A stretch of 64,000 bases of DNA, taken from positions 5,311,001 to 5,375,000 of the forward strand of contig NC_092578.1 in assembly GCF_037975245.1 (NCBI RefSeq), given 5' to 3'. The notes below the pieces were generated by a model. That model was not told the origin of the DNA, did no database searches, and worked only from the letters and a program-made list of their open reading frames with translations. How positions within the stretch are numbered: position 1 is the stretch's first letter; each line of letters starts with the position of its first letter. This document shows positions 133-35,216 of this stretch, piece after piece. The translations under genes were made by a program, and so were the position numbers. This DNA is from Apostichopus japonicus (lineage: Eukaryota; Echinodermata; Holothuroidea; Aspidochirotida; Stichopodidae).

Positions 133-612
133 CGGTTACTAAGAGTGAAATAATTTCGGAATAGTCCCCGTCTCCACTGGCGACATCGATGACGACTGTA
201 GCGGAAGAATTTCCTCCGGAAATTTGAAAGCAAGTCTCTCCGATGGTAAGGACCGGTAGATCTGCTTCCGGTGTGATGGATACTGGTACATCGACACTCC
301 TGGAGACGGTGACGCCATCTTCGTCCGTCACTGTTGCGTTCACAGTAACAGTAAATTCGCCGGAGAAATCCGGGATAGGGGTAAGAACTAAGTTTTGAGC
401 CTGTTCAGTCGGGATAATCCAGGCCTCTCCTTCGCCTAATTCTTCTCCCATGTTTGCCTCGAACAGTCCTGCGAGGTTTTCCAATCGGAGCTCAATGTCA
501 TCATTGAGAGTTGGATTCACCAGCTGGACAACCAGTGGGAACTGGAATGGCATGTCTTCCACACCGAACGCCGGTGAGAAACCAACAATCGGTGGTTCCT
601 TTGGTGGTGTGT
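133..612 (-). CDS. Exon 29: cadherin/VCBS-like domain (last exon in window)
   Basis: Encodes DTPPKEPPIVGFSPAFGVED, then SGEFTVTVNATVTDEDGVTV and ATVVIDVASGDGDYSEIISL. The Glu-Asp-Met/Thr-Pro-Phe opening, with Asp-Glu-Asp-Gly and Gly-Asp-Gly-Asp turns, resembles the VCBS/cadherin-like tandem domains of bacterial adhesins. Phase 1 in, phase 1 out (donor GTAGGT), so the gene continues left of base 1. Confidence 0.8.
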
Positions 613-3600
613 CTGAAATTTTTTAACACAAGTTGAAAATTATACAAATCAAGCTGTAGACACCGTAGGTAATATTTTATGAAGGGGCGTCGAGCCAAGT
701 CGGGCCCACATATTGAAGCCATCATTTCCCTTGAGTTTATTATGAAGATGGAATTAAAATATTCTGTGACACATATTTCCTCGGGCCCTCTAACTATGCA
801 GTTGACTCCGGGCCACGGTGGTGTAGCTCCCTGACACGCACCCCCTGTCCCCTCCCCCACATACGCAAACCACCTCAAGCCTGTTCTATTTACTGTTTAA
901 GACCAGTCACTGAAATTGTCGTGTAATGTTTTGACTGTGAACATAATGAAACCGGTGGGACAGTCCTCCCCCTCCAACTCCTTGGCCTGTTCTCTGTTTA
1001 TCTGGGTTTTGTGTTTGTCATGCTCCTGGTTTGGATAATTTAAGACTGTGTCAAACTTACCTTGACTGCAATCGTCTCCGTAGCGACCCTCAATACACTG
1101 ACATAAGTTATTGTTAGTGCAATTACCAGCTCCAGAACAGTTGTTGACACCTGCGCAAGACACTATTGGGTAACAAGGGGGGAGAAAAGCAACGTTCAAC
1201 TACTAATTTACTTTCCACAGCAGAGATTTTTCTATGATAAAAAGGCCTAGACGTGATCAACACAGGCAAAATACATGCGGAACTAGAAGAGTCTAATAAA
1301 GAAAATCGTTATGCAGGGAGTAGGAGGGGCAAACATGTGCACTATTTAACTTATATTGTACCGTTGCGTGGTACTGATCAACATCGATGAACCCCCGCGC
1401 TGGAAGGAAGCCTCTAGTTGCCGTGAAGTTCTGTGGTATATGACGTTACCGGAGCAAGTGAACTGCTTGGAAGCGCAGTAATGAGAAATGTAAGGGTGGA
1501 ATGATACAAATCTCTTGAGCGACGGCCATGATGGTGTACCGGCATTCTTGCATACAATTATGAAACTGTCATGGATAGACGTGCTTTAGATAAGCCGTGC
1601 TAAAGCATCAATGACGTCATCCTGAATGCCTTCATTATAGTATAGATACAGGCATATGTCAAATAGGATAATAACTTCAGCCTTAATTTATAAATAATTA
1701 TATATATATATTTAGAAAATACATAGCCTAATTAAAATTTAATTTAATTAATTAATTTTTTAAAAATTAAAAAATATAATTATAAATTCACGTAGAGGTT
1801 GACCAACCCGAGAAGTCAAGTTTCATGAGTTTTATAAATCAGACGACATTTACGCTTTTTAGTGTCGGCGGCTTCGACAAATACGGTTAGGCCCTATTAA
1901 TAAAATTACAATTCTCGATCTCCATTTTTTTTTTTGTGAAAGTGTAATAACGGAACAATTTACAGAACATGGTTTGCCTAAATGATAATAAAGGATTTCA
2001 AATCAGAGATGAAATAAAACAGGGTAGCGAGAGAGACAGAGAGAAAGTAATAGGAGAAAATCCAAATTATATGCACTGCTTGAAAGTGTGCTCATAAAGT
2101 CATGAACAAATATTTCAATGAGCAATATTTAGAGCAAGAGAACTCGTGAGTTTCGGACAGCGTACAGCGAATTTGTGTGAAAGTGGGAAAGAGTGTATAG
2201 GAAAAGCCAATAATGCATAGAGAAGGAAAATGTATTATTAATAGAATCATCGTTACAACAAGATTGAGTCCTATATAGATTATGTTTAGAAAGTGATGAT
2301 AAGAAATTTGATAAAACTAAGGTAAATTCCAAAATGGTCGGAATATCTCAGTTTTGATTTTGTCTTTAGGCTTATAGTGACCTGGAAAGGAATTGTTTTC
2401 GTTGGTTTTTGTGTAAACATGCACTTACCTTCCGCGAAGGGAAAGATGACCGTCAGCGATGACGCACCCGTAGCCGCCGACCGGAAATTACCGACGTTAT
2501 CTTCAGGTTGTAGGACAAGTTTATAAGTTGCACCACTAGGCACATCTAACACGACTGTCCGCTCGTTAGATGCACATGACTTCAAGAAACTGAGCTTTCC
2601 ATCTATATATAGCGGAGGAAACAAAAAAAATGCAAGTAAGTCATTTAGTGTAAAGTATAGGTTTCTAGCGACAAAGTTGAGCTAACAACTTGAATCAATC
2701 CTCACCTCTCGACATGCACATGCAGCATTTAGCAACTAATTCCAAGTTTGTACTTTACAGGCCTCTGAATGTTATAATCGGAAGTAGTATCAGCCTAGTG
2801 GTAGTAGTAGGTAAAGGAGACGTGAGGAGTGACGTCAATAATGTTATTTCGTTAAAGTTTGTTATTTTGATATGAGCCCATAAAAAAATCAATCAGACAA
2901 AATAAGGGTTCAGTGACCCATCAGTTATGAAGAGATGGAGAGAGTGACCAAATTGAACAGGATAAAGTAATGAAATCAGGAGGAGAAGATGGAACTGGCT
3001 AGGACATGTGCTGCGAAAAGACAGGGCAGGCAACAATTACATAGCCCTGGGATGGACCCCAGAAGGTTGAAGAGCAAGAGAAAGGCCTAAAACAACATGG
3101 CGGAGGACAGTAGAGAAAGAGAGGAGGAGAGCAGGCTGGAATAGTTGGAACGAAGCCGGGACAACAGCAGCGAACAGGAAGACGTGGAGGGAAGACGTCT
3201 CGGCCTTGTGTGCCTCTTGGCACAGAGAGCGTTAAGAACATGAAATATGATAATCGTAGTTCAATTCTGCATGTACATTCGCTTAACGATACATCATCAC
3301 AAACTATGAATGTCAAACGAATAGATAGTCTTGCTGCAAAACTGGAGACAATGTGCGTTTTAATTATTTATATAAAGTCTGGCAATTTTCGTGACATAAC
3401 ATGGTCTCATTTAGATGCGTCGAATGTTTCACTTATATAGTTTTAAGTCTACGAAATTGAAATGAATTGGTTGTGATCAACGTTACCGTTATCGGAGTAA
3501 ATGTTAGTAGTTTTTACACCGGCTCCTACGTCATTCAGTTCGAAAGAAAGCGCGAGAATGCCAGAGCTGATGACGTCATCGACTACACTGATATTGGATG

Positions 3601-3772
3601 CAACAGGAGAATCTCTGTCGATCTGATTAAAGGAAAGAGTACAAACTTGAATCAACTTGTCTTTGAAAGTTGCACTTCCTAACATAGACGGAGATGTAAA
3701 AACATACGAGAGATGGTAACACGTGTTATTATTTGTATACTATGAATCATGAATCATGAATGAATACTATGA

Positions 3773-3808
<36 letters not shown>

Positions 3809-6800
3809 TCATAATATACAAATAATAACACGTGTTACCATCTCTCGTATGATCGTATGACTCATAAGATACAAATAAGGAGTACTGTTTTAGAAATTAT
3901 ATTGGAATGTTCGGTCCACCTGGGACCTTCATCAGCAAAACTTGGCAGTGCCGAATGAAAAGTACAAAATGTAACAAAATTGAAAGTATGACGCTAGATA
4001 AGTGTGATTGGCACTGATGGAATTAGTACCAAATAAACCATGACTACACAGTAAGCGGATTAAGGAGCACAGAATAGGAAGAACGGATTACAAATATTTG
4101 TGGAACTAGTAGTTATTTAGTGCTCCCAAGTCTTTGCTGAGGCCGGTGATGTGGGACTTAATACGAATGATCCAAACCAATTCTTTCCGTACAGTTCCAG
4201 ACTTGAAGCTAGAAGCAATTTAAATACATTTTAGGTTGTTGAGAGAAATTATGTGAAGATTTAAATATTCCGAAAGGAGGTATTCTGTAAAATTTTCAAG
4301 AATTGACTAAAAATCAATTCGTTATTCTTTTGATTTTTTTAGGTGTATACACGTGTAGTTTCTTTATAATATATTATACTAATTAAATATTCAACTGATG
4401 ATAAAAAATGTAGATTGTCGAAAATATTGAATAGAAATACAAAATTATGTCATTAACATATCATTTCAAATCAGAACGAAATGTGTTGCTAGTGCATGTG
4501 CATCTCAGTATTCATACTTCTTCCGTTAATCTTCAATGTACATTACCGTGTTAAAGATAGCTTCAGTATCAATTGGATCGTTGTTATCAAACACTATCCT
4601 AGCCTCAGCGTCAATAACGTCGTACGTTTTGGACGACGAACGAGGCCGCACAGAGTACGTCACAAAGCCTTCTCCGTCAGTTCCATTTTCCATGTTTGGT
4701 GGCAGAAAACCGATTCCGGGATCGACTGGAGGCTGACCTGTCCATATATTGGTATAAAGTATCATTGAGTATCAATGTATCAATGAGTATCAATGAGTTT
4801 TAATTGTCTTTTAACACTGTAGTAACACTCACATTATGGATCACTTGAAACCCTCATTACATAGGCTACCATGTAGACATTTTGACGAGGCTGTTACAAG
4901 TTTTGCCCTTTTCGGGCAAAGGAGAAGGGAAGGAAGGAAGGAAGGTAAATGAGAACCAGAGCAATGAAGAGGGGGAGGGGAAGGGTATTGGGAGTCGAAG
5001 GAGATGCAGCATGGGTGCCTTACACATGCACGACTGATTTATCTACATGATTGGTGCTTCCAAAATCTTGAATCAGGAATCAAGTCGACAGTTACAAAAT
5101 CTATCAAAAGTTAGATTGGGAACGATAATTGTTTCTTGAGTCCGGGAAGCGAAATTATTTTTCCCACTTCGACGCGGCCACATGGGCGTGGCTTATGAAA
5201 TACGTCACAGGCCGGCAAGTTTGTGACTTCGACTTCGAGCTCTTACGTATATAGCTCTTTAATTATATACTCAGCTAATATACTCAGGCCCAATATACTC
5301 AGGCCTAAGACATGACTTCATGAGATCCATGATGATGTGCGACTGCTTCTCCCAGTCAATCGGGTCTTATGGAGCTCTTGAGGTAAATTCCATCACAAAA
5401 TCAAACTGTGTTTGTTTATTAGATGTGTTATGAACCTCCCGTGTCAGGAAAAGTTTGGAAAAGAACCTCCCGTGACAGCAGGCTCTGGAAAAGTTATAAA
5501 TGAACCTCCCGTGGTATTGATTATTACACTTCATATTACAGCAGGTAGGCCCACTGACCTTTCAATGCTAAAAACCTACAAAGATACGTGTATTGTATTG
5601 TGCCCCATATTGTTTTATCCATCATTCTAAATTATTTGTTCATTTATAAATGAACCCCCTTTTAAACGGCAGTAAGGAGCCTACGTGCTTTCATCATTAG
5701 TTTACGTACGCTACTGGGTATTGTTACGGACTTGAAATATTCTACCCATTTTATTAAACAGTTGTCACTTGCGTCTGTATTAACTATAACCAGGGAGCTG
5801 TTACTGTTAGAGTAGCAGCTCCCTGCTTTAACTATGACTAAATAGCAATGTCCCTCTGTACTATACTATTTATTATACTGGTACGTGTACTAGAATCCCT
5901 GACATGTAACTTAATTGAGAACTTTCAGCACCCAAACAAACACCCGAGAGATATCACTGCATAGTCTGTGACGTAGACCAATGAGCCGTAACAACGACCG
6001 ATAGTCCACGCCCATTATGCTAATATGGCCGCGTCGAAGTGGGAAAAATAATTTCGCGTCCGGGAATGGTGTTTTCAATGCCTTTTAGTTTTACTATTTT
6101 GATAGATATTTAAAGCTCATTCGCATATTCACAGGCCAGTTTCTGTTATAGCATATACAGTTGATCGTGCACCTAAAAAACTTAGCCGGAGCGTTTAATT
6201 ACACTGACCTGTGTCAGGATTCAGTGTTTGAAGTTCCCACGTAGCTCTTCTGTTGACAAAATCGAGTCCAGCCGTAACCCGAACGACATATTCTCGATCA
6301 TCGTCGAATTGGAGCGTCGTCTTAATAAAGGCAAAAGAGAAAGACAAATTATGAAGAAGAAGGAAAAATATCAGTTTACAAAAGAAATGAGCTTACACAA
6401 CAAGTGAAAATCCACTTTTCAGAAAATGACGTCACCTCGTGTGGTTATGGCGCATCAATAACATGCGACATGATTGCCGACATGATTAGGCTGCCCTGTT
6501 TGGCATTGGATGAGTACCAAAAAAACGTTCGCCCAATTTGCCATGTGAGTACGCATATATAAGAGTGAGTTATGTATGAATACTTATAACACTGACAGTT
6601 ATCTTATAGTGAGCAAACAGAGAAAAGGAAAACGCGTACAGGTATGCATGATCTAAAATCTGCAGATCTAATTTTTATTTTCGTGAGTCCTTCAAATCAA
6701 TATACTTTCATGCGAATAATAATTGTAAAACCTAAACGTCATTTACTCGCAACGCGGAAAAGAACATCGGTACGGTCAGAGCATTTAAAACAAAAATTAA

Positions 6801-9800: not shown

Positions 9801-11955
9801 CAGGACGTACAACCTAGCTTCTTGAAGTACGCATTAGATGTGTATTTTGCATGTGGAATCGGAGACACCATTAGATATCACAGATATGAAGATAGAGTGT
9901 TTGGGAGCAAATAACCCACCGTAAGAGATAGTATACTAACCCCACGCCGTCGAAATTGTAGAAGAAAAAGTCACTCCCTTCTTGGTAGCCGACAAGACCA
10001 ATGTTAGATGCATGGAAATAGTTTATTGATTTATCTTCCGACACCTTGAAATGAAAGGCAACAAAAAGTTCACTGCTATGTCATTACGAAACAACAGGCA
10101 TGAAGTAAACTGTATTCTTGGAAAAATAATGTTGACATGAAAGGAAAGGGGTGTTTAATGTCACGAAAATTGTATGGTGATATGATCGTTAAAAGTATCA
10201 TATTATATTTTATTATATGGTGTCTTTGAGCAAAATCTAGGCTTATTTATAGTCCATGCATGGAAAAGATTTGAGCTTTGTTAACATTTATTTAGCTGTT
10301 CTGTTCTTCAAGATCATCCAGCTTTAATGTATGCTAAATCACTGTAATGCTCCATTACTGGTTAATTGATGACATATGTGCCCCAATAAAATGTTAATGT
10401 TCATCCATTGTCTTATGAATTATAAAAATTCAATCGAATCATGTTCTGATTCAAATATGAAACAGAGCCCCGCGCCCACTTTTATTCTCCTCTGGAGTTC
10501 TAAGAACATTCCTGCAGTTGATAGACTCTTAATTTCACATTGATAAAATAATTACCTCGATTAATACGTTCGCGTCAATTTCTCCAAACAGATCCATGTA
10601 GTAGCGTGTGCTTACCCCAGCGCAGATTGTTTCGTGTAAAACACCCATCGCGTTGTAATTATACACGCAATCTTCACCACCCATTTGGGATGATGCTGTT
10701 ATCTGATTGTACACATTAAATTCATAACTAGCAGAACTGATTGTGTCTTGCATTTCAATGATATTTCCATTTTCATCGTTCATAACTGCCACGTCTCCGA
10801 TCTGCTCATATTGGTTAAGACTGTTGACAACATATGAGGTTACATCACCATTTACATCCATGGATCGACGATTACCGGCACCATCATAAGCAATGCTGAC
10901 TTCATTTCCCTGAGGATCACTCCAGGAACGAATCTGATCAGCGCCGTCGTAGCGAACGTTCCATGTACCCTGGGTAGTATTGATTTCTTGTCTAAGAAAT
11001 CGTTGATTGTAGCCATAATCAAATTGAGAGACAACAGTAGATCCGCAGAAATTCAAAACTCGGGTAAGAATTGATCCACCTGTCTTATAGGCATAGGATG
11101 TTTCACATCCGTTTGGAAATGTTCGCTTAGAAATAGGACCACGCTGATCATATTCAACATTTACGAGGTTTAATCCAGTTTGCCCATCTGTAACATCGAT
11201 AACGCGATTGAGCGTATCATAGGAATACTTGGAATGGTAGCCCTCGCCATCACGGATAGCTATTCGTCTGTCCTGATCATCATAATCGTAGGTGAAGGTT
11301 TTGCCGTCTGGGTACTGCACCGTTCTTGGCGCACCAGAAGATGTATATGTTATCTTGATAGTGCCGACACCATTTGTGGCTTCAGTCACTAAACCTCTGT
11401 CATTGTACATGAAGAAAACATCATCGTCTTGCTCGTTGGCTCTTTCAACGGTAAGCCCTTCCTCGTTTACTTGAAAGGATGATGTTAATCCGTTTCGATC
11501 ACGCCCTCCAACCAAAAATCCGTTTTCGTCGAAGGTTCTGTTTTCAAAAGTACCATCTGGATAAACAATTGATGCAGTATTCGTTTCCTCGTCAAGATTG
11601 TATTCATACCGGTTATTATTCCCATCTATATACTCAGTAAAAGGCTGGAAAGATGTTCTAGTGAATGTAATTACGTCGTCATTACCATCGTAGACACGAT
11701 GGATATTTTGTTCGATATCGTACTCGCGTCTCTCGGCAACCTGAAATATTGAAGAAGAAAAGGTATTCACAATTATTTGTAGTTCATCAATGAATTGTCT
11801 AATTTAATGGTGCAATATTGTTTTTTATCAGTTTAGAGTTTATTTATTTTTCAACAAAGATAAAAACAAATATTGCTAGTTGTAATATTATGAAAGTATA
11901 AATTGCTTTGGTTTATGCCTTAAAGGAAAGACATAGCTAGAACAAAAGCTTTTTT

Positions 11956-12006
<51 letters not shown>

Positions 12007-27000: not shown

Positions 27001-30000
27001 GTTTAAAGTTCAAGCATTTTGTAATTCTTGAGATACCGTGTTTACATTGTTTTCCGCCCATGACCTCTGGTGATCTCTCAAATGACCCTTGACCTCCATG
27101 AAAAAATAGAGAACATCTACTTACTAAGGGCTACCCACATAATAAGTTTGAAATTCAGAAACTGCTACTCCTAGAGATATTGTGCTTACCAAGTTTTTCA
27201 GACTTTCACCTCTGTTAACCTCAAATGACCTTTGAACTCTATACAAAACAACAGGGATCATCTACTTACTAAGGGCTACTTACACACCAAGTTTGAAGTT
27301 CATTCAACTTAAACTTCTTGAGATATCGTGTTTACGAGCCAAGCGTCACATACACACACACGCATACACACTCGCGCCATCACCGTCGCATAGATTCCTT
27401 CGGCCTTCGGCAAGGAATCAAAAAAGTACTTTCTACCTAAGGTGTGATACTGTGTGACTATGGGGTCACGGCACACCCAACATACTTCCTTTCTATACCT
27501 AATTCTACGCGTAATGGAAAATTGAGTCCGTCACATGTAGCTTGCTTTCCAGTTATTAATGATTTTCCCAGAAAAATTAACATGAAGTACCTAGTATAAC
27601 AAGATATAGATTGCCTTCACTACAGGGGTTTTGTTTGAGCAACGAATGCCTATATCAACCGTAATGGTGTGGATGTCTATGTCATCTACTTGAAATGCGC
27701 GAACGGAAATTACCTTTCAGGGTATCTCACGGCCTAAAACCTATAGTATATATATGCAGAGTACAACCAATAGAGATAAAATATACTTACCCAACGTTAT
27801 CACGTGGAGTGAAACATAGTATTTCCTCTACACCAATGGTTTGAGGTGTCCATGTTACATTCACATGATAGTCAGTCGGTAGGCCACCAGGATAAGGCAA
27901 GACACCTGATTTTAGCACTCCTGGTGGTGATACTGTGTCAATATCTGCAATACTGTCATAACGAGAAATATATCATACCTTTGTAAAATGGTTTTTATAC
28001 ACCTCACTGCAAATGAAATTAATAAAAATATATATATTATCATTAAATTTACTCTTTTCAGCAGCAAATCAGCTTAATGTGTTTTTCCGATCAGTTTGGG
28101 TGTTTGTAGGCGATATATTTTCGTGTTTGTATTGTGTTGTGCGTGTATTTGTTTCTCCCTTTTGTTCAGGGAGTGATCTACTCCTGCATGCATGTCTTCC
28201 TGTCACATGACTGCTTCATGTTCTTTATACCACTTCGTTTCTGTGTGATACGATGAATCAATTGAACTGAGTATACCTGACGTCTTCAGAACCAGTTCTT
28301 GCAACAATCGGCTCATGGTAAGTACTGTTTGCAGGTACGCCTACACACGATCCCGAACTTCTTGTCGGAGGAATAAAAACAGGCTGAGAGACACACGATT
28401 CATCGCTAGAAAACAAATCAACCAGGAACTGCAAAGGTATCTCACTGAGAACCTCTGTTGAAGATTGGGTGGCAAAATCCTTAATTTCAAGAGCAACTCC
28501 GTACAATCCAAGAGAGGTGGATGTATCGACATCCCAGACGAGTTCACAAGTTGTCTGTAACATGATTGCAGGACTGTGTAAAGAGTTGTGTTCAAGAATT
28601 ACAAGGAAAACGCACGTTAGGGTATCAGTATAGGACGTTACTATATATCAGCGTGTGAGGACGAAATGGGGGGAGGGGAAGATGCCGCAAATATCAAAGT
28701 TATTTTGAATTTCTATATATTGAGTGCGACATTAAAATTATTTTAGACACAGACCAGCTGCCCCTTTATTCATGCATATATAGATGAAAGGGGAAAAACA
28801 AGGGTAGGTTTATTACCTCAATCACTTCGAACCCACCTCGTTAGTTCAAACACTATTTGTTTCGTGCTAATGAGCAATTACTGTTTCAACAGTTAAGGCC
28901 AGTTTAAACTAATTCATCCATTAATTTGGGCACAACGTTAGAGATAAGATTCACAAAGACTTAAGCAATTTATCACCTAGCAAGGTGCTATAAACGCATC
29001 TCTCGGCCAAAGGGAAGCCACGTCATGGTGTAATGACATTTAATTAGAAATTAAATAACATATACTGCGTAGGGAAGGTCGTGGCCGATTGTTTCAAGAT
29101 GATAATTCTGTGCACACTGCAGGTGTCGAATCGCATTTCATGTTTTAAAAGGTTAGTTAAAACTAAAGTCATCGTGTGCACTGCTTATTTAATTCCAACT
29201 GTACCCTTTTTTGCTTGTTTTGGGGGATTTTTTGGGGGTTTAGGGTGTTCCTTTTTTTTTGTAACTGGGGAACTGCCTGTAACAATACATTTGATTCTGC
29301 GTTTCCAAGTATATAATCTGGGTGTTTACTTTGTTATTACCCTTGAATAAAATACTATTCTGAACTGAAACCATGCACTTCCTTTGCACCGTTGGAAGAC
29401 AATAAAAGCGTCGGGTGTCACGGTCTACCAACGAAATCAATTACGGTAACGTAAAGTAAATGACACGCTGTATAGTTGTGAAAAGGCTTCATAACCCTTA
29501 AAAAGATACTACTTAACCTTGAATTTCGTGGTTGACAAAGACATGCAGTTACTTTTAACAACAATGATGCCTCAGTGCTCTCTATAAACCTTATTGAACC
29601 CGTCTGTTTGCTTTAATTGGTTTGAAAAAAATTGTTTACCATTCGAAACTAAAATCTCACAACAGCACAATCTTAAGCGCTATTTGTTCGTCATGCCATA
29701 TAATGAAGAAAACTCCCCCCCCCCCAACCAAAAAAAAACAAGTGTTGTATGATGAGTCCAGTACTAGGTGATAATTTCTGTAGGTGACGATATGTCATAA
29801 GGTAGAATGAAATCATAAGACTTTTTCTATTCGTTTGGTGACAACATCTTGCTTGCCGTAGATGGTGATCATACACTAAAAGTTTCTCTACACATGCATA
29901 CATATATTAATGCATACATAACACTGTTGACTGGCAGTGACTTCAATGTTGTAACTTTAACCTGAATGGTTAGCGACCATACATACATGAAGGCATTTGC

Positions 30001-33000
30001 GCAACGCCACTCAGCCTAGGCCTATATATAGTCTAGAGCAGAATTTGACATATCCACCAAAACTTGTGTAACACGCACTGCATTATAAATGAAGACCGAC
30101 AGAGTGGAGAAGGAGGAGGCTCTTTTGTATACCCATGGAGCTATAAACAGCTCCATGGTATACCCAAGTACCGAAACCTCGTGTTTCATTAGCCGCCGCC
30201 CATCGTGGGCGGCTATATTGTGCTTATACAAATGGCTTCTTTGTGAACAACACGGCACATCGCTGCTCACAAGACAAAAGATATTACATACTTCATTCAA
30301 GACCGCTCCTGGTAAACGGTTGCAGATACCCCCGCATCTTCTTGTGGCCCAGAAGCACCTTACGTCATCTCCATCCGGATCATTAACTGACGCAGATAAA
30401 AAGAAAATATATTGTGAAAGGTTACCCAAATATTCTTCTCTTAATAAAGTGCCGGAGAAGCTTGTGTCTTAAAAGCTTGGTTTTTTCTTAGGTTGTACGA
30501 TTATGCAAACGGTGGGAAAAAAAAGGAAAATAGGAAGATAATATAGCTTTTTGACACGTTTGTCGGATTTTTTTTAATTAGAAGTTGAGAAATATTGAAT
30601 GAGCACAGTGTACATGGGGCGTAGAAGGGATAGCGACAGCAATAAGTTGATTTTACAGGGTGAGCGCAACTTATGGGAATCAATATGCTTTCGGGAAGTC
30701 ATTCTAACAAGTGTTTCCACACAACACCTCATCTCTTTCAAAATGTGCACGAAATGATACGAATAATATGTCACAGCTACATTTGTAAAGAAAATCTCGG
30801 GGTGTGTAAGGTAAACACCCAAGTTTAAGAATATATTACTCCAGTTTCACAGAAACCCGTAGAGCGTTGTAACTTGTTCTTTTATTGACATAGGCCTATG
30901 CAAACGTGATATAGCTCCTGGACAGTTATAAAAATGCAAAAACAGTGCAATTTAAACTGCTCGATGTATCTAACTTATTTCCATATTACAAAAGCTTGAG
31001 TATAGTCCTTTTGTGAGAGAACTCACGTTATCATAAATAGAAAGGCTGATTCTCGAAAATACCAACGTGTCCTTTAAACGTTAAGGCTGTGAGTATTCCC
31101 CCCCCCCCCTTCCCTCCACCCGGCCACTCTTTCTTGGGATGGAGACATTCAACATACAAAAAGTTAGTCCCAATTATGGTAAATTTATGTTAAGATTCAT
31201 TATATGTATAATGCTTAAAATGGAATATGCATTTTGAGTTGGACTACATAGTCTATAGCTTGATCACATTGTCCTCCTAAATCCAATCAATTTATTAGTT
31301 ATACCCTCAATCAAGCTAATTTGCTTGTCACTGGTTTACGAATTAGTAACTGGTTTGATACATCCCACTAATTTTAATGCATTCTTTCATTGAAAAACAA
31401 GTATGCCAATTTTAACATCTTTCGTGTGGTTGTGGTGAAAAGATTACATCTTCAGATACATGCAGGTCTTGTCTTAGAAGTTAAATAACGTACGGTACGT
31501 GGTAACGGCAGGTTTGTAGTAAATCCAACACAAAAGGACACTATTATAGTGGTTTCGCGAATATTTTATAAGTAACCGCAGACGGAAATGCGAACCGACT
31601 ATAACTGAGCCATGCAATGAAGTCAAGTTTACGTGTCTTTACAAACATAAAGTTGTTAGTAGCTGGTGTTTTGGGTAATGTAAGTATTTCGAAATAATTT
31701 GCACATAACCCAACGCATCGATTATACGTATTAAAGATATAAACTTTATGCTGGATATTAAAATGTCCTAGGAGGGTCATATCTGATTTCCTAGTCGAAA
31801 TGTACAAAGATTAGGCAGATTAATGGTCATCTTCAAATATCAAAATTAAATTAAAATAAAACAACAACCATTATCCAACAGCTTATCCACTTGTGTGAGC
31901 CTGTGTACGAGAATTAACCTATCAGTATTCTGTGCTTGTATTTTGTCCCTTGTAGTTTATGATACTTGTCATTCAGCATCTGAAGAAGATCCTGGTAGGA
32001 TCGAATCATCAGGCCAACTCACTTTTACAAATCTTCAAATATCATATGATAATGATATGCGGATGTGAATAAAATACTCGGCTGTAGAATACCTCACATG
32101 CAGTAATCGAAGAATTAAAGTTGCTTTAATTTCTAAACATCTGTTAAACCAGGGAGGATTTAAAAATGAAACATGCATGCATGCAAACCTAGCTTTCTTA
32201 TTCTTTATAGGTTAAACAACAAAGCGTTTCCGAGCCTACCAGTGTTTACTTACTGGTCAAATGTAACTAGAACATTTTAATCGGTGGCTTAAAACACCTC
32301 AAAATAATTCGCATTCCGGCGCTATAAGATAAATACCATCGATGCAAATATTTCGTGAACATAGATTAAAATATTAAAGTGTTATGCAAAGTATGTTTAA
32401 CGGTCCAATAATTTCTTTGACGCTCTACCAATATTAGCTTGCGAATTTAAGAAACGCGGTTTTACCTGGTATTGTGATGGAGTTATTGCATTCACGTTGA
32501 AATCGCACAATAGGCATTGTGGTTGTAGTCGGTGATGAGTTGATACGTCCGGTGTCGTTTCGAATCGTTAAATCGATTATGGCACCTAGATTCCAACCTG
32601 ACCCACCATTTCGTAAGGAAATCCAACAGCAGCCTGAAAACCTAATGAAATCGTTCACTTACTAATGTACTCTGTAGTCAGTAATTCTGTCAGCGGTTGG
32701 GATACGCTGTTAATGGCTGGGTGCAGGGGCCCACCAAGAGGACAAAACGCTGGTGTGTGTTTAGTAAGGGGCCAACTCAACAAAGTTGATCAGCGTTTTC
32801 AGCTATTCATGTTTTATTACAGAAAACGTATGCATCACGCTGTACGATTGATGTTAACTCGCGAGCGATTTATAAACAGAACATGACACAGAAGCAAGGA
32901 AGAATAACATAAATAGTGCAGTAACCGTACAAAGAATAGCTATATTTGAAGCAGCAAAGTCTCAAGTTCTCCTGCAAATTGTCAAAATTGTGTAAGATAA

Positions 33001-35216
33001 GGAACCTTATTATCAAATCACAACATAATTGGTTTTGCCAATTAGTTTTCGCAAGTCACTGATTTTGTTTTGTTTTGCCGACCTCGGTTAACCTTAGACA
33101 GTTAGACCTGTTCATCTTAATCTGTAAAACGTAAGTAAGATCCGTTATATTACAACCTGTAGAACTATGAAACTGATACTTTTTAAACTAAGACTAAAAC
33201 TAGGACATGGAAAAAAAGCAAAAAGAAATTTAAAGAAGAGTAACATAAATAGTGCAGTAACAGTATAAAGTATAGCTATATATGAAGCAGCCGTTATAAC
33301 TCTATTTCATCTTTACATTACGTTTCCATTGAAAACCACTGTTAGAAACTGTTAGCATATCACATCTGTTTTATACAAAAATAAATTTGATGAAATAACG
33401 TAACGATGTTATGCTACTATATACAACGAGATTTGTTGGCTATATAATTATACTGAAAACTTATTTAATATACGCTTCAATTATTTCATCTAGTTATGTT
33501 AAATGTAATACTTACCATACTTCGAATGTTGTTGTCGAGGGCTGGTACTGAAATGAATTAATTCCAGTAGACCAGTCTTCTGTGCTACTGAAATCAGTAC
33601 AGATATAAGTCAATCTCTGAGAAAGACCAAAACATGTACATGACAAGCCTCCTTCCCCAGATATTACTTCACGGTTGGCAATGCTTTCGTCAGTGCAAAA
33701 ATGTCCACCAGCACTCCGTCTCCACGCCATACGGTATGAGACTTCGATCTATTCAGACAAGAAATGTAAGCATTTTGTATAAAATGTGACTACTTTAAGA
33801 AACTCACTTAACTCAGAAGAATATCTTGAACGGAAGCCCGTCTTCGAAATAAAGCTCTCCGTGTATATGATTCACACAAGTGCAACCATTATATATTGCT
33901 ACTATCTGCAGCACCGCAAGTTAAACTAGATTTATATCAGAAAATGCTTTTCCTGAAAGAGGAGTCACATAAAGTGAGGAATTCGTAATTGATACTTTAT
34001 AAGTGCGGAATACATATAATTTTATTTTAACTTAATTAAAAATTTTCGTCTAGATTTATATAACATTTTCTGAAAATGTTGAAATGATTAGGACTAATAC
34101 AATAAGTTCAACTGTTTGCACCAAAATGGTAAGATATTTTCGCTTTTGTAATTAATCAATTAACGACAAAATGATTATCTCACACAATTAAGTGATTGTC
34201 TCCTGCAAACTGCAAATTATTAAAATTTCGAAGTTTTTTTTTTAGGTTACAGTGCAAGATAAGGAACCGTATAATCAAATCACGGAGATTGTGAATTGAA
34301 GGAAATAGGTTTGGCAAATAGTTTTCGGAAGTCACTGTTTTTTTTTTTGGCGACCTCGGTTAACCTTAGACAGTTAGACCTGTTAATCTAAATGTGCAAA
34401 ACTTAAGTGAGATCCGTTATATTATAGCCTGTAGAACTATGACCTTTTGCAACTGATACTTTTTAAACTACTGTAAGACTATTAAAACTAGGACATGGAA
34501 AACTATAACTTTGAAACCTGTGGAACAATGGCTTATAAAACTAGTACTTGTCGAGCTAAGACCCTTAACTAAGACTGTTAAAACTAGGACCTGTTAAGCT
34601 AGGAATTTCAAAATTTCTGAAAACATGGCTTACAAAACTAATACTTGTGAAGCTAAAAAACCTGGAAAACTCATGCTTCCAAAACTAGGACCTGTAAAGC
34701 TAGGAACATTAAAACATGTGAGACCATGGCTTATAAAACAAATATACTTGTTAAGCTAAGACCCGTAAACTCAGACTTTTAAAACTAGTGCCTGTGCAGC
34801 TAGGAAATTTAAAACCTGTGAACCCATGGCTTATAAAACAAATATACTTGTTAAGCTAAGACTCGTAAAACTATGACCTGCTAAGCTAGGACATTTAAAG
34901 ACAAATATCTTAAATTTGTTCAAATAAAAGTACTATCTTTAAGCCGTAAAGGGTGAATGTAACTATGATTGAGATTTGAGATTTTCCCGCCATTCAACAA
35001 TATGGACCCTATGTGACTTAAATATGGCCTAATTTTTAAGAATAAGAGAAACAGTCACGATTCACTTACCAGTGGTAGAACATTGGTCTGATTGTTGTCT
35101 GATTGTATCAATGGCCGCCATGATATAATTCCACCTCTGAAATGAGAAGCTCCTGCCTCATTCGCGAAAAGAGATATCCACAAAACGAAGACACATGTAA
35201 CCCCACTGGACACCAT
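133..35216 (-). CDS. Giant secreted RHS/YD-repeat, CARDB and Ig-like protein (29 exons, 3' end off window)
   Basis: Twenty-nine GT-AG exons join into one open frame of 11,809 bases (about 3,936 residues) that leaves the window in phase 1, so the stop lies left of base 1. Order of parts: signal peptide (1-23); cysteine-rich N-terminal domain opening with SHFRGG (24-370); SbsA-type Ig-like domain (about 378-497); Ig/HYR-like domains (497-760); CARDB repeats (from about 940 through 1,950); a pre-peptidase-C-like beta segment and further Ig-like modules; RHS N-terminal region (from about 2,460); YD repeats (2,600-3,150); RHS core (about 3,210-3,260); hydrophobic Gly/Ala-rich post-core; Asp-Pro-Asn-Asp module; EGF-like; cadherin/VCBS-like domain. 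No membrane segment is seen within the window apart from post-core hydrophobic stretches. In known families CARDB and Ig-like folds are adhesive and RHS repeats form a closed beta-barrel shell. A secreted or surface adhesive role is inference. It is not a teneurin: the NHL, transmembrane and EGF-array order of teneurins is absent. Confidence 0.85.
1061..1162 (-). CDS. Exon 28: EGF-like domain
   Basis: Encodes VSCAGVNNCSGAGNCTNNNL then CQCIEGRYGDDCSQ. Six cysteines in the spacing C-x5-C-x5-C-x5-C-x-C-x7-C make one complete EGF-like domain in its own exon between phase-1 introns, as typical for metazoan exon shuffling. It is eukaryotic in style, unlike the RHS part. Confidence 0.88.
1163..2428. 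other. Intron 27, no recognised element
   Basis: Intron between exons 27 and 28. It contains a strongly AT-rich block near 1680-1790 and otherwise nothing recognisable on either strand. Confidence 0.5.
2429..2602 (-). CDS. Exon 27: Ig-like domain closing segment
   Basis: Encodes DGKLSFLKSCASNERTVVLD, VPSGATYKLVLQPEDNVGNF and ends TVIFPFAE. The 'G..Y.....eDnvGN' close is typical of Ig-like modules in this protein (compare exons 10 and 11). Phase 1 on both sides. Confidence 0.75.
2969..3235 (+). mobile_element. 3' end of a non-LTR retrotransposon ORF (reverse transcriptase C-terminus)
   Basis: The plus strand reads RRRWNWLGHVLRKDRAGNN, ALGWTPEG, then after one in-frame TGA, RPKTTWRRTVEKERRRAGWN and TWREDVSALCASWHRER before TAA. 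The Trp-Ile/Leu-Gly-His-Val-Leu-Arg-Lys-Asp and Arg-Pro-Lys-Thr-Thr-Trp-Arg-Arg blocks are the classical C-terminal tail of RTE/Nimb-like non-LTR elements. The copy is 5'-truncated and opposite to the host gene. Confidence 0.85.
3487..3622 (-). CDS. Exon 26: Ig-like strand set
   Basis: Encodes IDRDSPVASNISVVDDVISS and LALSFELNDVGAGVKTTNIY, the opening of a bacterial-type Ig-like domain after IFNT. The acceptor TTAATCAG gives the right phase. Phase 0 in, phase 1 out. Confidence 0.72.
3703..3851. repeat. Fold-back palindrome with (AT)n centre
   Basis: Two inverted arms of 48 bases (3703-3750 and 3804-3851), matching at all but one position as read by eye, surround an alternating AT tract. The arms contain the internal palindrome CACGTG. 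It lies just upstream of exon 26 in transcript orientation. Confidence 0.9.
4547..4737 (-). CDS. Exon 25: GFLPPN segment of the module
   Basis: Encodes GQPPVDPGIGFLPPNMENGT, then GEGFVTYSVRPRSSS and EARIVFDNNDPIDTEAIFNT. The Gly-Phe-Leu-Pro-Pro-Asn and Ala-x-Ile-Val-Phe-Asp-x-Asn-x-Pro-Ile-x-Thr motifs close the module. Phase 1 in, phase 0 out at GTAATG. Confidence 0.82.
5140..5148. repeat. Left target-site duplication
   Basis: GTCCGGGAA, identical to 6058-6066 on the other side of the 909-bp element. Confidence 0.9.
5149..6057. mobile_element. Non-autonomous DNA transposon, 32-bp perfect TIRs, 9-bp TSD
   Basis: The ends 5149-5180 and 6026-6057 are exact inverted repeats starting GCGAAATTATTTTTCCCA, and imperfect inverted similarity continues inward (TGGGCGTGG, ACGTCACAG). 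The flanks 5140-5148 and 6058-6066 are both GTCCGGGAA, a perfect 9-base duplication. A 9-bp TSD with long TIRs points to a Mutator-like element. The 909-bp interior has no transposase; it has three GAACCTCCCGTG repeats near 5430-5520. It sits in intron 24 of the giant gene. Confidence 0.9.
6058..6066. repeat. Right target-site duplication
   Basis: GTCCGGGAA, identical to 5140-5148. Confidence 0.9.
6209..6320 (-). CDS. Exon 24: continuation of the module
   Basis: Encodes TTLQFDDDREYVVRVTAGLD and FVNRRATWELQTLNPDT, the second half of the same module ('V.v.aglD...r.a.W.l.tlDP.Tg'). Phase 0 in, phase 1 out at GTCAGT. Confidence 0.75.
6842..7072 (-). CDS. Exon 23: DPNDIIGP module
   Basis: Encodes NDIIGPSGFGDARFIAADDT, LEYRIRFENMANATAPAQLV and TFRLGNFGFGNFTFELG. 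The block D-P-N-(D/E)-I-x-G-P...Ile-Arg-Phe-Glu-Asn...Ala-Pro-Ala-Gln is, from memory, widespread in large bacterial secreted proteins next to RHS or CARDB domains. 77 codons, phase 0 on both sides. Confidence 0.82.
7587..7949. mobile_element. TTAA-flanked MITE, copy A
   Basis: A 363-bp unit flanked by TTAA at 7583-7586 and 7950-7953, with short inverted ends (AGGGCATGAAGACTCGCGC against AGACATTGAAGACGCGCCC). TTAA targets are the mark of piggyBac and Kolobok superfamilies. A second, inverted copy lies at 50351-50703. No coding capacity. Confidence 0.8.
8037..8131 (-). CDS. Exon 22: linker to Asp-Pro-Asn-Asp module
   Basis: Encodes GKKPDKEDERRMGVNGRDLF and then EDVLRWIRSYDP, charged and probably a linker after the post-core region. 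Using the GTAAAC donor gives SYDP|NDIIGP with exon 23; reading through would give a stop 24 codons later, so a shorter isoform ending here is possible. Confidence 0.7.
8593..9410 (-). CDS. Exon 21: RHS core domain and post-core region
   Basis: Starts GAVADIVDARGAVVSSFSYD and PFGN, then the RHS-associated core: GLYLTRTRLYNAKIGRFVSP, then LYLYAKNNPYSFVDPEG (about 9116-9262). The Arg-Phe-(x)-Ser-Pro-Asp and Asn-Pro-x-x-x-x-Asp-Pro-x-Gly elements are intact. About 175 residues follow, with Gly/Ala-rich hydrophobic stretches such as AIGKAAVGAVIGLGTYAVS and GAAWAAVTGGLPLGKVVG. No effector fold is recognised there. Phase 2 in, phase 1 out. Confidence 0.88.
9941..10044 (-). CDS. Exon 20: RHS segment before the core
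   Basis: Encodes VSEDKSINYFHASNIGLVGY and QEGSDFFFYNFDGVG. It is equivalent to the 'Y.HD.lGs...' segment that precedes the RHS core in bacterial proteins. Phase 0 in, phase 2 out, donor GTTAGT. Confidence 0.75.
10556..11740 (-). CDS. Exon 19: YD-repeat array
   Basis: A 395-codon exon that is almost all YD repeats: YDIEQNIHRVYDGNDDVI, YNLDEETNTASIVYPDGTF, YDDQDRRIAIRDGEGY, YDTLNRVIDVTDGQTG, YDQRGPISKRTFPNG, YDGADQIRSWSDPQGN, YDGAGNRRSMDVNGD, and YNAMGVLHETI. In characterised RHS/Tc/teneurin proteins such repeats wind into a hollow beta shell. Phase 0 on both sides. Confidence 0.9.
11958..12002. repeat. (TA)n microsatellite
   Basis: About 45 bases of alternating TA next to the tRNA-like sequence. 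It may be the tail of that SINE-like unit. Confidence 0.9.
12050..12121 (-). repeat. tRNA-like SINE head or tRNA pseudogene (Cys-like anticodon ACA)
   Basis: On the minus strand a 72-nt cloverleaf-like sequence: acceptor GCGTCCA against TGGAGGC (6 of 7 pairs), A-box-like TAGCCTAGTGGTTAG, anticodon stem TCCGC/GCGGG with loop GTACAGA, and B-box GGTTCGAATCC. The T stem has two mismatches and the anticodon ACA is unusual for Cys, so it is a SINE head or pseudogene, not a working tRNA. It lies in intron 18 in the same sense as the host gene. Confidence 0.7.
12285..12663 (-). CDS. Exon 18: RHS/YD repeats
   Basis: Encodes SYTYDLTESFLLSASVNGDT, SYTYESDGAVSSFTDANGVK, SYNAYGILDSVKVLDPNGE and FTYDISGNTGYI. 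Repeating Tyr-x-Tyr-(Asp/Glu/Asn) every ~20 residues is the YD-repeat signature. Phase 2 in, phase 0 out, donor GTGAGT. Confidence 0.82.
13105..13354 (-). CDS. Exon 17: RHS repeats
   Basis: Encodes AFDSTTLALKYIASFEDDTR, NRPVEVISSFGSSLTVSYTA and LVEAWDRRGNMYS, strands with the RHS spacing (..L..i.d..G...v.Y...G.l..v.D..G). The donor is GTTAGT; phase 1 in, phase 2 out. Confidence 0.75.
13975..14108 (-). CDS. Exon 16: RHS N-terminal region
   Basis: Encodes WNLKIVSVEEKSLILEQENN and ends TSSRGSIILNGT. It fits the RHS plug/shell opening that follows the Phe-Gly-Arg-Gly-Trp motif. Phase 2 in, phase 1 out. Donor GTACAA is weak but its phase fits the next exon. Confidence 0.65.
14647..18407 (-). CDS. 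Exon 15: 3.76-kb exon with CARDB array, PPC-like segment and RHS N-terminus
   Basis: An intron-less 1,253-codon exon. It finishes one CARDB (IEVATDVTNTV...FEYENNN), then carries about six more: starts near ADLVISDANGTVSLNLISGE, NLTISNAFDELDSFTAGEDI, SLEVSDVGWEILQSGTAIFV, PDLAVTNITGFPLNVSFGSF, GDLVAAISSSALDLGSGEPF and SDLAVTSVNAPVTASFGASI. A following segment (ETLIVSLESTS...GEYYLLVQNNG) resembles a bacterial pre-peptidase C-terminal domain. FEIMDIKPRQVAPLGMVTIS resembles an IPT/TIG start. The last part, TRTFDSRLSSRAVVGAFGRG, is the classical RHS opening with Phe-Gly-x-Gly-Trp. Such a long exon among small ones is notable. Phase 0 in, phase 2 out. Confidence 0.85.
18621..18779 (-). CDS. Exon 14: CARDB domain, first half
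   Basis: Encodes NISVILSPPADFTVTNVTV and then SGEAVNVSWEVRNAGNGLPD. The 'G...V.WEV.N.G.G' core is diagnostic of CARDB. It is completed in exon 15. Exactly 53 codons, phase 0 on both sides. Confidence 0.8.
18780..19394. other. Intron 13 and adjacent short introns, nothing recognised
   Basis: A 615-bp intron with a C9 run near 19108. The neighbouring introns 18408-18620, 19691-20110, 21296-21847, 22121-22616 (G18 run near 22420), 22872-23203, 23463-23713 and 23812-24033 also show no further elements. Confidence 0.5.
19395..19690 (-). CDS. Exon 13: CARDB domain
   Basis: Completes the CARDB domain begun in exon 12: GLEIEVRWSVDNVGFGVTRD, ending VIVETDVFSSIYEHVFENNN, the typical Glu-x-Asn-Asn-Asn close. 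The donor is GTAATC, weaker than the others in the gene, so the 3' edge is the least certain part. Confidence 0.75.
20111..21295 (-). CDS. Exon 12: HYR/Ig-like, FN3-like and first CARDB domain
   Basis: Opens DNEAPVVSNLSTAFVTCGAP and SRVWKATDAAGNSATSRQSL, a hyalin-repeat-like unit. A middle SPANGEANVALTAFLSWPSY and SHRVYIWRYE resembles a fibronectin-III strand. The end is a CARDB domain (PDLTVGEIVIPDFAFSGQAI, SWEVSNVGQMG, FVFVETD...IDRSNN) and the start of a second (PPPDLQVSDVIVPSSSFSG). 395 codons; phase 1 on both sides. Confidence 0.82.
21848..22120 (-). CDS. Exon 11: second phase-1 Ig-like domain
   Basis: Encodes DTTAPEVEILMRPTDFSNNT, then SFRCASYRDTCQFVCGYNSS, closing ATDDVGNTGEEVTITWIVG. 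It has the same length, closing strand and flanking intron phases (1,1) as exon 10, so exons 10 and 11 look like an ancient tandem domain duplication. Four cysteines suggest disulfides. Confidence 0.8.
22617..22871 (-). CDS. Exon 10: Ig-like domain
   Basis: Encodes RDVTPPVLVFNNVPFRSNE and then NVTIEWSVNEP, with Cys in NSTCTLSSPSG and VFCGQSW, and closing TATDTSGNIGTTRQTTWFVG. This is a one-exon Ig-like unit in the bacterial Big_3/Ig style, bounded by phase-1 introns as expected for a shufflable domain. Confidence 0.8.
23204..23462 (-). CDS. Exon 9: SbsA-type Ig-like domain, second half
   Basis: Continues the fold with RPTRPTYISVYDETDSLV and later YYILMDPGVAKSTSFCGVES, ending TLWTFTI. The 'LDPGV...FTI' close is characteristic of Big_5/SbsA Ig-like folds. 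Phase 0 in, phase 1 out at a GTAAGT donor. Confidence 0.75.
23714..23811 (-). CDS. Exon 8: SbsA-type Ig-like domain, first half
   Basis: Encodes TNPPEINFTSLEPPNGALL followed by IPNDISLAFTFDQQ. The Pro-Pro-Asn-Gly-Ala-x-x-x-Pro...Phe-Thr-Phe pattern is that of bacterial SbsA/Big_5 Ig-like domains. Phase 1 in, phase 0 out. Confidence 0.75.
24034..24074 (-). CDS. Exon 7: micro-exon closing the Ig-like domain
   Basis: A 41-base exon encoding GSVGIQSCITLVTG. Joined directly to exon 6 it reads DNVGSVGIQSCITLVTG, the expected closing strand with its cysteine, and joins exon 8 as TNPPEINF. Acceptor TTTCAG, donor GTAAGT. Confidence 0.75.
24830..27422. repeat. Degenerate tandem repeat block rich in TGACCT half-sites
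   Basis: Intron 6 holds two mixed repeat types. From about 25,280 to 26,070 a ~170-bp unit recurs (anchor TTGACC...GGATCACATAACCG). From about 26,230 to 27,330 a ~145-bp unit recurs about eight times (anchors CTACCAACATACTAAGTTTA, TTCTTGAGATA, TTTTCAG, TGACCTCTGGTGACC). Most units carry TGACCT direct repeats at spacings of 4 and 1, e.g. 26494-26516. The block ends in a CA-rich run and CCTTCGGCCTTCGGCAAGGA, an end common in marine-invertebrate repeats (from memory). Confidence 0.8.
27791..27952 (-). CDS. Exon 6: YHVNVTWTP beta-sandwich segment
   Basis: Encodes SIADIDTVSPPGVLKSGV and then YHVNVTWTPQT and EILCFTPRDNVG, the end of an Ig-like or fibronectin-like fold. The acceptor TATGACAG keeps frame, while the next AG downstream would introduce a stop. 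Phase 2 in, phase 2 out. Confidence 0.8.
28277..28554 (-). CDS. Exon 5: N-terminal domain, beta-sandwich segment
   Basis: The acceptor is the TTACAG just before ACA ACT TGT, giving TTCELVWDVDTSTSLGLYGV. The pattern continues with ALEIKDF, SEIPLQFLVDL and a Cys-Val-Gly-Val-Pro motif. Phase 0 in, phase 2 out. An alternative upstream acceptor (ACACAG) gives the wrong phase. Confidence 0.8.
28555..30291. other. Intron 4, nothing recognised
   Basis: 1.74 kb between exons 4 and 5. It contains GT-rich and T-rich tracts near 29190-29270 and a C10 run near 29717. No coding or RNA feature is supported. Confidence 0.5.
30292..30386 (-). CDS. Exon 4: NDPDGDDVRC segment
   Basis: Encodes VNDPDGDDVRCFWATRRCGG and then a CNRLPGAVLNE end. 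The Asp-rich DPDGDD loop suggests a calcium site, as in cadherin-like or Ig-like folds (inference). Phase 1 in, phase 0 out, donor GTATGT. Confidence 0.8.
30387..32465. other. Intron 3 with a fragment of the 36-38 kb repeat
   Basis: 2.08 kb. The stretch 31877-32035 resembles the fold-back part of the 1.58-kb tandem unit (GCTTATCCACT...GAGCCTGTGT and GAAGAAGATCCTG.TAGGATCGAA, CAGGCCAACT..CTTTTAC). The rest shows nothing recognisable. Confidence 0.5.
32466..32641 (-). CDS. Exon 3: FSGCCW segment of N-terminal domain
   Basis: Encodes FSGCCWISLRNGG followed by a RNDTGRINSSPTTTTMP segment; the Cys-Cys-Trp and the Arg-Ile-Asn-Ser-Ser-Pro blocks look like the conserved core of this N-terminal family. 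Leaves in phase 1 at a GTAAAA donor. Confidence 0.8.
32940..33215. repeat. Dispersed duplicate, copy 1
   Basis: Shares long stretches with 34215-34497 in the same orientation, such as GACCTCGGTTAACCTTAGAC, GATCCGTTATATTA and TGATACTTTTTAAACTA. Copies lie on either side of exon 2 (33516-33748), suggesting a segmental duplication around that exon. Confidence 0.8.
33516..33748 (-). CDS. Exon 2: cysteine-containing N-terminal domain
   Basis: Opens IEVSYRMAWRRS and contains Cys pairs in a GGLSCTCFG stretch. The acceptor follows a TGAATAG; the donor is GTAAGT. It enters in phase 0 and leaves in phase 2, and the split codon with exon 3 gives Trp (FEVW|FSGCCW). Confidence 0.8.
34215..34497. repeat. 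Dispersed duplicate, copy 2
   Basis: Second copy of the segment at 32940-33215, running directly into the minisatellite that starts near 34490. Confidence 0.8.
34490..34905. repeat. Minisatellite of about 100-bp units
   Basis: Four to five diverged tandem units with anchors ATGGCTTATAAAAC (near 34528, 34624, 34726, 34826) and TTAAGCTAAGACC. It lies in intron 1 of the giant gene. Confidence 0.8.
35070..35216 (-). CDS. Exon 1: signal peptide and start of N-terminal domain
   Basis: The ATG at 35216 opens a typical secretory signal (MVSSGVTCVFVLWISLF, then NEAGA) with a likely cut after residue 23. The mature chain starts SHFRGGIISWRP, a start shared, from memory, by many uncharacterised marine-invertebrate proteins. 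The exon has 49 codons, ends in phase 0 and has a consensus GTAAGT donor. No upstream in-frame alternative is needed. Confidence 0.85.

Follow-up and report, generated by a model that had tools for sequence, protein, structure and literature searches.

The standard example of a bacterial RHS toxin that was turned into an animal cell-contact protein is that of the teneurins. The animal RHS proteins known to us from the literature are the teneurins (PMC13018210, PMC6297184), the mosquito protein SGS1, a secreted RHS-shell protein thought to derive from a bacterial endosymbiont (PMC9935623), and SGS-type RHS proteins recorded in crustaceans and insects (PMC3482391). According to PMC9935623, the YD repeats of solved RHS proteins make a hollow shell that is plugged by the core, the hydrophobic helices of SGS1 lie inside it, and two aspartates of the core have a catalytic role.

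We analysed 64,000 nucleotides of the Apostichopus japonicus genome (hereafter the window; C18:5311001-5375000 of the host genome, which was searched as 671.6 Mb in 35 contigs), whose minus strand encodes what we call the RHS gene. This gene resembles each of the described systems in part. Like teneurins and bacterial teneurin-like proteins, it combines a putative YD shell and a bacterial RHS core in an animal extracellular protein, but teneurins are described as type II membrane proteins with TEN_YD-shell and Tox-GHH/TCAP (PMC13018210, PMC6297184). With mosquito SGS1 and SGS4 it shares a large, probably secreted RHS shell, the autoprotease site of the core and a hydrophobic, helical-looking segment behind it, whereas the SGS proteins are Tc-like, with beta-propellers, Tox-SGS and a presumed endosymbiont origin, and CARDB and DUF7619 are not mentioned for them in the accessible sections of that paper (PMC9935623). 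The core of the RHS gene scores 29.8-32.5 bits against the SGS structures PDB 8fjp and 9on3, and the two pieces of the protein that were scanned had no Tox-SGS or beta-propeller Pfam match at E 0.05. The polymorphic RHS toxins, as PMC3482391 describes them, also have a conserved shell and core followed by a variable segment behind DPxG, but there it is a C-terminal toxin accompanied by an immunity gene, whereas here DUF7619, an Ig unit, an EGF-like motif and a tandem-95-like repeat follow. The closest likeness is to bacterial CARDB/PPC/IPT-RHS-DUF7619 proteins (L039, L035, L034, P0018 and P0019, with P0006 for the front part), which have the same main units in the same order over about 2,800 residues and differ in being single open reading frames with other N-termini. 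Our literature search, in which subscription journals were thinly covered, found no description of an animal gene with CARDB and RHS, and the words RHS, teneurin and CARDB are absent from the main text of a 2026 compendium of transfers to animals (PMC13342648).

We consider it reasonably probable, taking the explanation as a whole, that a bacterial gene was transferred as a block, was fused to animal modules, and now encodes a secreted cocoon protein, for which we favour a part in adhesion.

Gene structure and domain content

Minus-strand open reading frames of 1,268, 413, 422 and 243 residues have matches to CARDB, HYR_4C and RHS_repeat. A gene finder combining codon scores and splice-site weights returned a single minus-strand chain of 29 exons from position 35216 to position 133, with at least one further exon to the left of the window edge. 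The resulting 30-exon model encodes 4,020 residues, or 3,992 residues, with no stop, when an alternative junction between exons 6 and 7 is used. The codon scores were trained on five large open reading frames of the same gene, so the chain is not blind, and the second copy of the locus described below is therefore the stronger check: it contains all 30 modelled exons with AG/GT borders, exon 1 begins at an ATG, and the last donor is ambiguous. The first-choice junction between exons 6 and 7 is frameshifted in that copy by an 8-base insertion; the other junction, with a weaker donor score, leaves it open over 3,991 residues and the window gene over 3,992. The 29 exons and 3,936 residues of the original prediction, made from the letters of the window, thus agree with the chain to within this junction. 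Its span of 133..35216 contains the 29 exons in the window, but the gene does not stop at 133 and its exons run into the neighbouring DNA, where the two copies gave no agreed position for a 3' end. The features are as follows.

133..35216, minus: part of the RHS gene inside the window, 29 exons, about 3,920-3,950 residues (gene-finder chain; exons found in the tandem copy)
35070..35216, minus: exon 1, with start codon, signal-peptide-like stretch and beginning of the SHFRGG module (by eye; chain)
28277..33748, minus: exons 2-5, SHFRGG module (exon matches across the genome)
24000..27952, minus: exons 6-7, which join either from 27791 to 24145 or from 27804 to 24074 (the second option keeps the tandem copy open)
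20526..23811, minus: exons 8-11 and the first part of exon 12, with Ig units of the Big_13 and HYR_4C-like kinds (Pfam) and what looks by eye like an fn3 unit
15987..20525, minus: CARDB array in exons 12-15, nine units by eye, ends approximate (Pfam CARDB; bacterial matches)
14647..15986, minus: end of exon 15, PPC, IPT-like, Ig, WxxVWDxF segment and the first part of DUF6531 (aligned with P0002 and P0006; Pfam sub-threshold)
14645..14646, minus: donor site GT of exon 15 (the P0002 reading frame stops at the aligned residue)
9920..14108, minus: exons 16-20, end of DUF6531, YD repeats, first part of the RHS core (RHS_repeat 57.1 bits)
9121..9410, minus: first part of exon 21 (end approximate), end of the RHS core with both Asp, SPD and DPEG (TIGR03696 68.5 bits)
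8046..9120, minus: exons 21-22, hydrophobic cargo segment of about 204 residues, helical-looking by eye (between the RHS core and DUF7619)
3608..8045, minus: DUF7619, beginning late in exon 22 and reaching exon 26, boundaries approximate (PF24595 64.3 bits)
2429..3607, minus: exons 26-27, Ig unit behind DUF7619 (alignment with P0019; weak in the segment-by-segment test)
1061..1150, minus: exon 28, EGF-like cysteine motif, sub-threshold (EGF_PEAR1L 18.1 bits, cut-off 37.5)
133..612, minus: exon 29, tandem-95-like repeat, sub-threshold (NF012211 20.4 bits, cut-off 90)

Between exons 6 and 7 (window 26239-27335) there is a tandem array whose repeat unit measures about 145 bases. Further left on the minus strand, at window -47000..-31000 (L015-L017), are exons with what look by eye like repeated vWD-like domains; we rejected these exons, some 21-47 kb further left, as part of the RHS gene, because a GPCR-like open reading frame on the opposite strand (plus strand, window -14956..-14087) intervenes.

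Matches above curated cut-offs identify the RHS core (TIGR03696, 68.5 bits, cut-off 32.5) and the YD repeats (TIGR01643, 34.1 bits, cut-off 15.8) in NCBIfam, and in Pfam RHS_repeat (PF05593, 57.1 bits, cut-off 22), DUF7619 (PF24595, 64.3 bits, cut-off 27), CARDB (67.7 bits in the large exon and 61.2 in the N-terminal piece, cut-off 22.7) and Big_13 (29.9 bits, cut-off 27). Chance is excluded for the matches to the RHS core, RHS_repeat, DUF7619 and CARDB. The intact RHS core and the long YD-repeat array of the original prediction are thereby borne out, and among the model hits it expected, PF05593, TIGR03696 and CARDB were obtained but PF13205 was absent from the joined protein at E 0.05. It had counted about eight CARDB domains; CARDB passes its cut-off, but we see nine units by eye and Pfam passes three stretches in the large exon and one over the border of exons 14 and 15, possibly overlapping. 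PPC (16 bits, cut-off 25.9) and DUF6531 (17.1 bits, cut-off 24.1) fall below the Pfam cut-offs in the animal protein, and both calls are backed by alignment with P0006, where they pass. HYR_4C reaches 29.5 bits on the exon's reading frame alone and 19.8 in the joined piece, under the cut-off of 27. The predicted EGF domain stands as a cysteine motif in exon 28 with a score below its cut-off. The part called VCBS-like has some resemblance to tandem-95 repeats, but far below the NCBIfam cut-off, and Pfam at E 0.05 has nothing for it. The first reading gave no name to DUF7619 or to the Ig unit behind it, which were added by the Pfam scan and by alignment. The N-terminus reads by eye as a cleavable signal peptide. 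For the N-terminal Ig units, an animal and a bacterial source are both conceivable.

Two copies of the locus and the segment behind the core

The locus occurs twice, head to tail, on C18 (window -8033..68281 and 68285..140792), in units of about 72.5-77 kb that are 98.9-99.0% identical over the middle and 85-98% in other blocks, with identical exons 1-6. There are no gap letters (N) in the 164 kb examined, and the two copies may reflect either a genuine tandem duplication or two haplotypes assembled one behind the other. The RHS gene has been kept under purifying selection: 70 synonymous and 85 replacement changes separate the tandem copy from the window gene, with a dN/dS of 0.37 over 3,992 codons (p 2.5e-9 for the difference between replacement and synonymous rates, computed with the other version of exon 7). 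Between the copies, dN/dS is 0.14 in the YD repeats and core and 1.08 in the cargo, where 28 replacement and 9 synonymous changes compare with 57 and 61 elsewhere (p 0.0043, a comparison picked after the table was seen). The cargo is likely under weak or diversifying constraint. A tract from about 7750 to 9100 diverges by 3-9% in 150-base windows; it starts just behind the DPEG of the core and spans the cargo, in exon and intron. Because the introns diverge too, by 5-7%, an older tract spared by gene conversion, together with relaxed constraint, could explain it.

RHS autoproteases have two catalytic Asp, and the window core keeps both (in SPD and DPEG). By analogy with the Rhs, Tc, teneurin and SGS1 proteins, the YD repeats and the RHS core would form a hollow shell, which we regard as probable, and the roughly 200 hydrophobic residues behind DPEG may sit in this shell or thread through it, as in SGS1. 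Cleavage behind DPEG is predicted because both Asp are retained; this prediction of self-cleavage, by analogy again, is tentative, with the doubts slightly outweighing the hopes. Secretion of the product is most likely; its CARDB units may serve as a stalk, and the CARDB array and the C-terminal domains may provide contact surfaces. A role in extracellular adhesion or recognition is the one we favour, if with more doubt than confidence.

The animal might also have retained the logic of the polymorphic cocoon, that is, a self-cleaving conserved shell with an exchangeable, fast-changing cargo, secreted for recognition or defence, but we think this unlikely. We judge much the same of a retained toxin carrier, whose cargo would be released behind DPEG and act on microbes or foreign cells. 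Such a carrier would account for the conservation of both autoprotease Asp, for a cargo unlike that of the eight bacterial relatives discussed below (none of the eight has a match to the segment between the RHS core and DUF7619), and for the excess of replacement changes just given. It fits poorly with the rest: no toxin domain is recognised in the cargo by Pfam, DUF7619 and further units lie behind the cargo, which is therefore not the C-terminus, and relaxed constraint fits the ratio equally well, the comparison being post hoc and the tract including introns.

Bacterial relatives and animal modules

Searching 5.8 billion proteins with the large exon, with 8,000 candidates scored, gave 17 matches; P0006, which carries CARDB, PPC, DUF6531 and RHS repeats, is 29% identical to the animal protein over 689 columns from CARDB to DUF6531. 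A search with the C-terminal part gave 283 matches, and in the nine that rank highest among the 120 listed, RHS repeats occur together with DUF7619. Both P0018 and P0019 match the profile from PPC/IPT to DUF6531 (P0019 from IPT on), followed by YD repeats, RHS core and DUF7619 in this order; the N-terminus of P0019 matches WD40 families and it has, by eye, a dockerin-like end, and DUF7619 is absent from the listed domains of P0027. We treat P0006, P0018, P0019 and P0027 as bacterial relatives, their contigs bearing no organism label. The PPC-DUF6531 profile was further matched in 16 of the 392 genomes around a Planctomycetaceae record (the planctomycete-group, with the genome of L018 as search centre). 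L018 itself, the sole locus from a scan of genome contigs, was discarded as a relative: its match lies in reading frames unrelated by eye, and its genome has no DUF7619 match.

The most complete evidence comes from L039, an intron-free reading frame in a planctomycete-group genome, which is 2,760 residues long and runs off the start of its contig. It aligns with residues 1927-3276 of the animal model, unbroken from CARDB to the RHS core (24% identity over 1,447 columns, 246 bits), and again at DUF7619 (residues 3467-3704, 36%, 138 bits). Segment by segment, it has CARDB, PPC, Ig, YD repeats, RHS core and DUF7619 in order, an order that thus exists intron-free in bacteria. IPT, DUF6531 and the last Ig unit were not found in L039 by this test, which found IPT in P0006, P0018 and L032, and DUF6531 in L034, L035, P0018 and P0006. 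The animal series is complete in none of the eight bacterial proteins that we compared; in several of them PPC, IPT and DUF6531 give a weak match or none. Since the order of segments and the alignment with L039 match, residues from about 912 to 3,730 of the animal protein can be read as one bacterial architecture, though no single bacterial protein has all its segments. These roughly 2,800 residues look like one transferred bacterial gene, and bacterial kinship extends, beyond the RHS core of the original prediction, to the whole series from CARDB to DUF7619.

Several transfers, or a domain-by-domain assembly in the animal, might have produced the same series. The parts do occur separately in bacteria: L032 and L033, giant bacterial proteins (L032:5131-16869, L033:6212-17254), have CARDB, PPC and DUF7619 with no RHS match, and are 45% and 41% identical to the animal protein at DUF7619 and the Ig unit. 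In the place of RHS, L032 has CarboxypepD_reg-like repeats, an indication that bacteria exchange what stands ahead of DUF7619. Against a piecemeal origin stand the unbroken alignment of L039 and the host genome, where searches with CARDB, the large exon and DUF7619 found nothing beyond the RHS gene and its tandem copy. (PF05593 gave none of 14 candidates at E 0.001 over the 672 Mb, missing the RHS gene itself, so that this result is no evidence of absence; a repeat of 38 residues is probably too short for 672 Mb.) We thus find a piecemeal origin quite improbable; the series most likely came as one block, and a bacterial origin in this form is, in our view, very probable.

The ends of the protein have a different character. 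EGF and HYR had no match in the three relatives scanned (L039, L032 and L035). The SHFRGG module, for which no Pfam match at E 0.05 and no family name were found, gave 51 exon matches in the genome; eight fall in the RHS gene and its tandem copy, the other 43 outside them, on C1, C3, C8, C11 and C18. Because these 43 lie elsewhere in the genome, the module is an animal multigene module, which agrees with the fusion that had been predicted at the N-terminus. Clusters of SHFRGG exons are seen at C3:13.59-13.77 Mb, at C18:6.6-6.7 and 19.45-19.49 Mb, and on C11, C8 and C1; five copies on C3 are 54-69% identical by exon to the module in the window.

The process we propose would have involved 1) the uptake by an animal ancestor, in one transfer, of a bacterial gene with the CARDB array, PPC, IPT, Ig, DUF6531, YD repeats, RHS core, DUF7619 and Ig; 2) the gain of introns by the transferred gene; 3) exon shuffling, which would have joined the SHFRGG/HYR module at the N-terminus and the EGF and tandem-95 units at the C-terminus; and 4) retention of the fused gene by selection.

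Teneurins, repeated adoption and age

The RHS gene does not appear to be a teneurin. First, the genome has its own teneurin at one locus on C14 (the PF25023 search scored five candidates and gave two matches, both on C14), which reaches 242.8 bits against solved teneurins and has no DPxG behind its core. Second, the 400-residue core of the window gives 181, 170, 179, 152 and 148 bits against P0018, P0019, P0027, L039 and L035, and 23.4, 11.5 and 22.8 bits against three teneurins. Third, the C-terminal piece has no match to TEN_YD-shell (PF25023) at E 0.05, and behind the core there is no Pfam match to Tox-GHH/TCAP at E 0.05; DUF7619 sits there instead. Several of the nearest RHS relatives have DUF7619 behind the core and PPC/IPT units ahead of it, and we know of no teneurin with CARDB, with DUF7619 behind the core or with PPC/IPT units before it.

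For the phylogeny, RHS cores were extracted by HMM (114 of 123, nine dropped), replacing a narrower regular expression (29 of 65), and the tree used 71 rows, namely those ranked P0085 or better together with L034, L035 and L039, from a total that includes four reference rows. The window core groups with P0018, P0019, P0027, L034, L035 and L039 at 100/99, and a second tree of 35 rows hand-picked from these 71 recovers the grouping with bacteria at 99/97. The core phylogeny thus answers the original prediction in part: the best tree places the gene with six bacterial rows, but the AU test does not reject a single clade of the window and the teneurins (p 0.30 with 71 rows, p 0.39 with 35). The teneurin branch amounts to 2.2 changes per column, and long branches lead to the animal rows in both the core and the PPC-DUF6531 trees. 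Taken by itself, the AU test is compatible with a sister relation. The separation from teneurins, which had been predicted, rests on scores, architecture and gene location. A divergent teneurin, or one transfer common to the gene and the teneurins with CARDB and DUF7619 added later, would be compatible with the AU test, and the EGF-like motif weakly matches the teneurin EGF model (15.9 bits, cut-off 65); the separate C14 locus, the core scores, the lack of a TEN_YD-shell match and the architecture of the bacterial relatives all speak against it, and we rate it as very unlikely.

The original prediction took the gene for a second domestication. This is overstated, as the SGS proteins of mosquitoes already add a case to the teneurins. 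Since SGS1 and the SGS-type proteins of crustaceans and insects are already recorded, the RHS gene is at least a third adoption, and animals seem to have adopted bacterial RHS shells at least once more than in the two known cases. If true, this is an independent further case, in which animals took over nearly all of a different bacterial architecture, and RHS shells would have been adopted repeatedly. It would also allow a direct comparison of what animals keep (the shell and the core Asp) with what they change (the cargo), and the gene offers a probably secreted shell protein with a testable cleavage and cargo.

An assembly artefact or bacterial contamination, to which the nearly identical head-to-tail copy could point as two haplotypes in a row, is hardly credible given the introns, the animal module, a contig of 20.4 Mb without N in the stretch examined, and two further proteins: P0001, which comes from a different data source and is 99% identical, and the diverged relative P0002. 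The latter, on a contig of 305 kb, is 30% identical over 97% of the largest exon. A profile of the window exon and P0002, searched against 5.8 billion proteins with 8,000 scored, gave no third sequence among the 25 listed that covers the large exon as P0002 does. In the PPC-DUF6531 tree, which left out P0001 and matches with under about 150 profile positions, P0002 and the window exon pair at 100/100 against 20 other rows. The last residue of the P0002 reading frame, a Trp, aligns with the TG|GTAA donor of the window, and P0006 continues through this point. The natural reading is that P0002 and the window share an intron at the end of exon 15, and we infer from this shared exon end that P0002 comes from a eukaryote. 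Because this 30%-identical relative covers nearly the whole exon and ends at the same splice point, the RHS gene is probably old.
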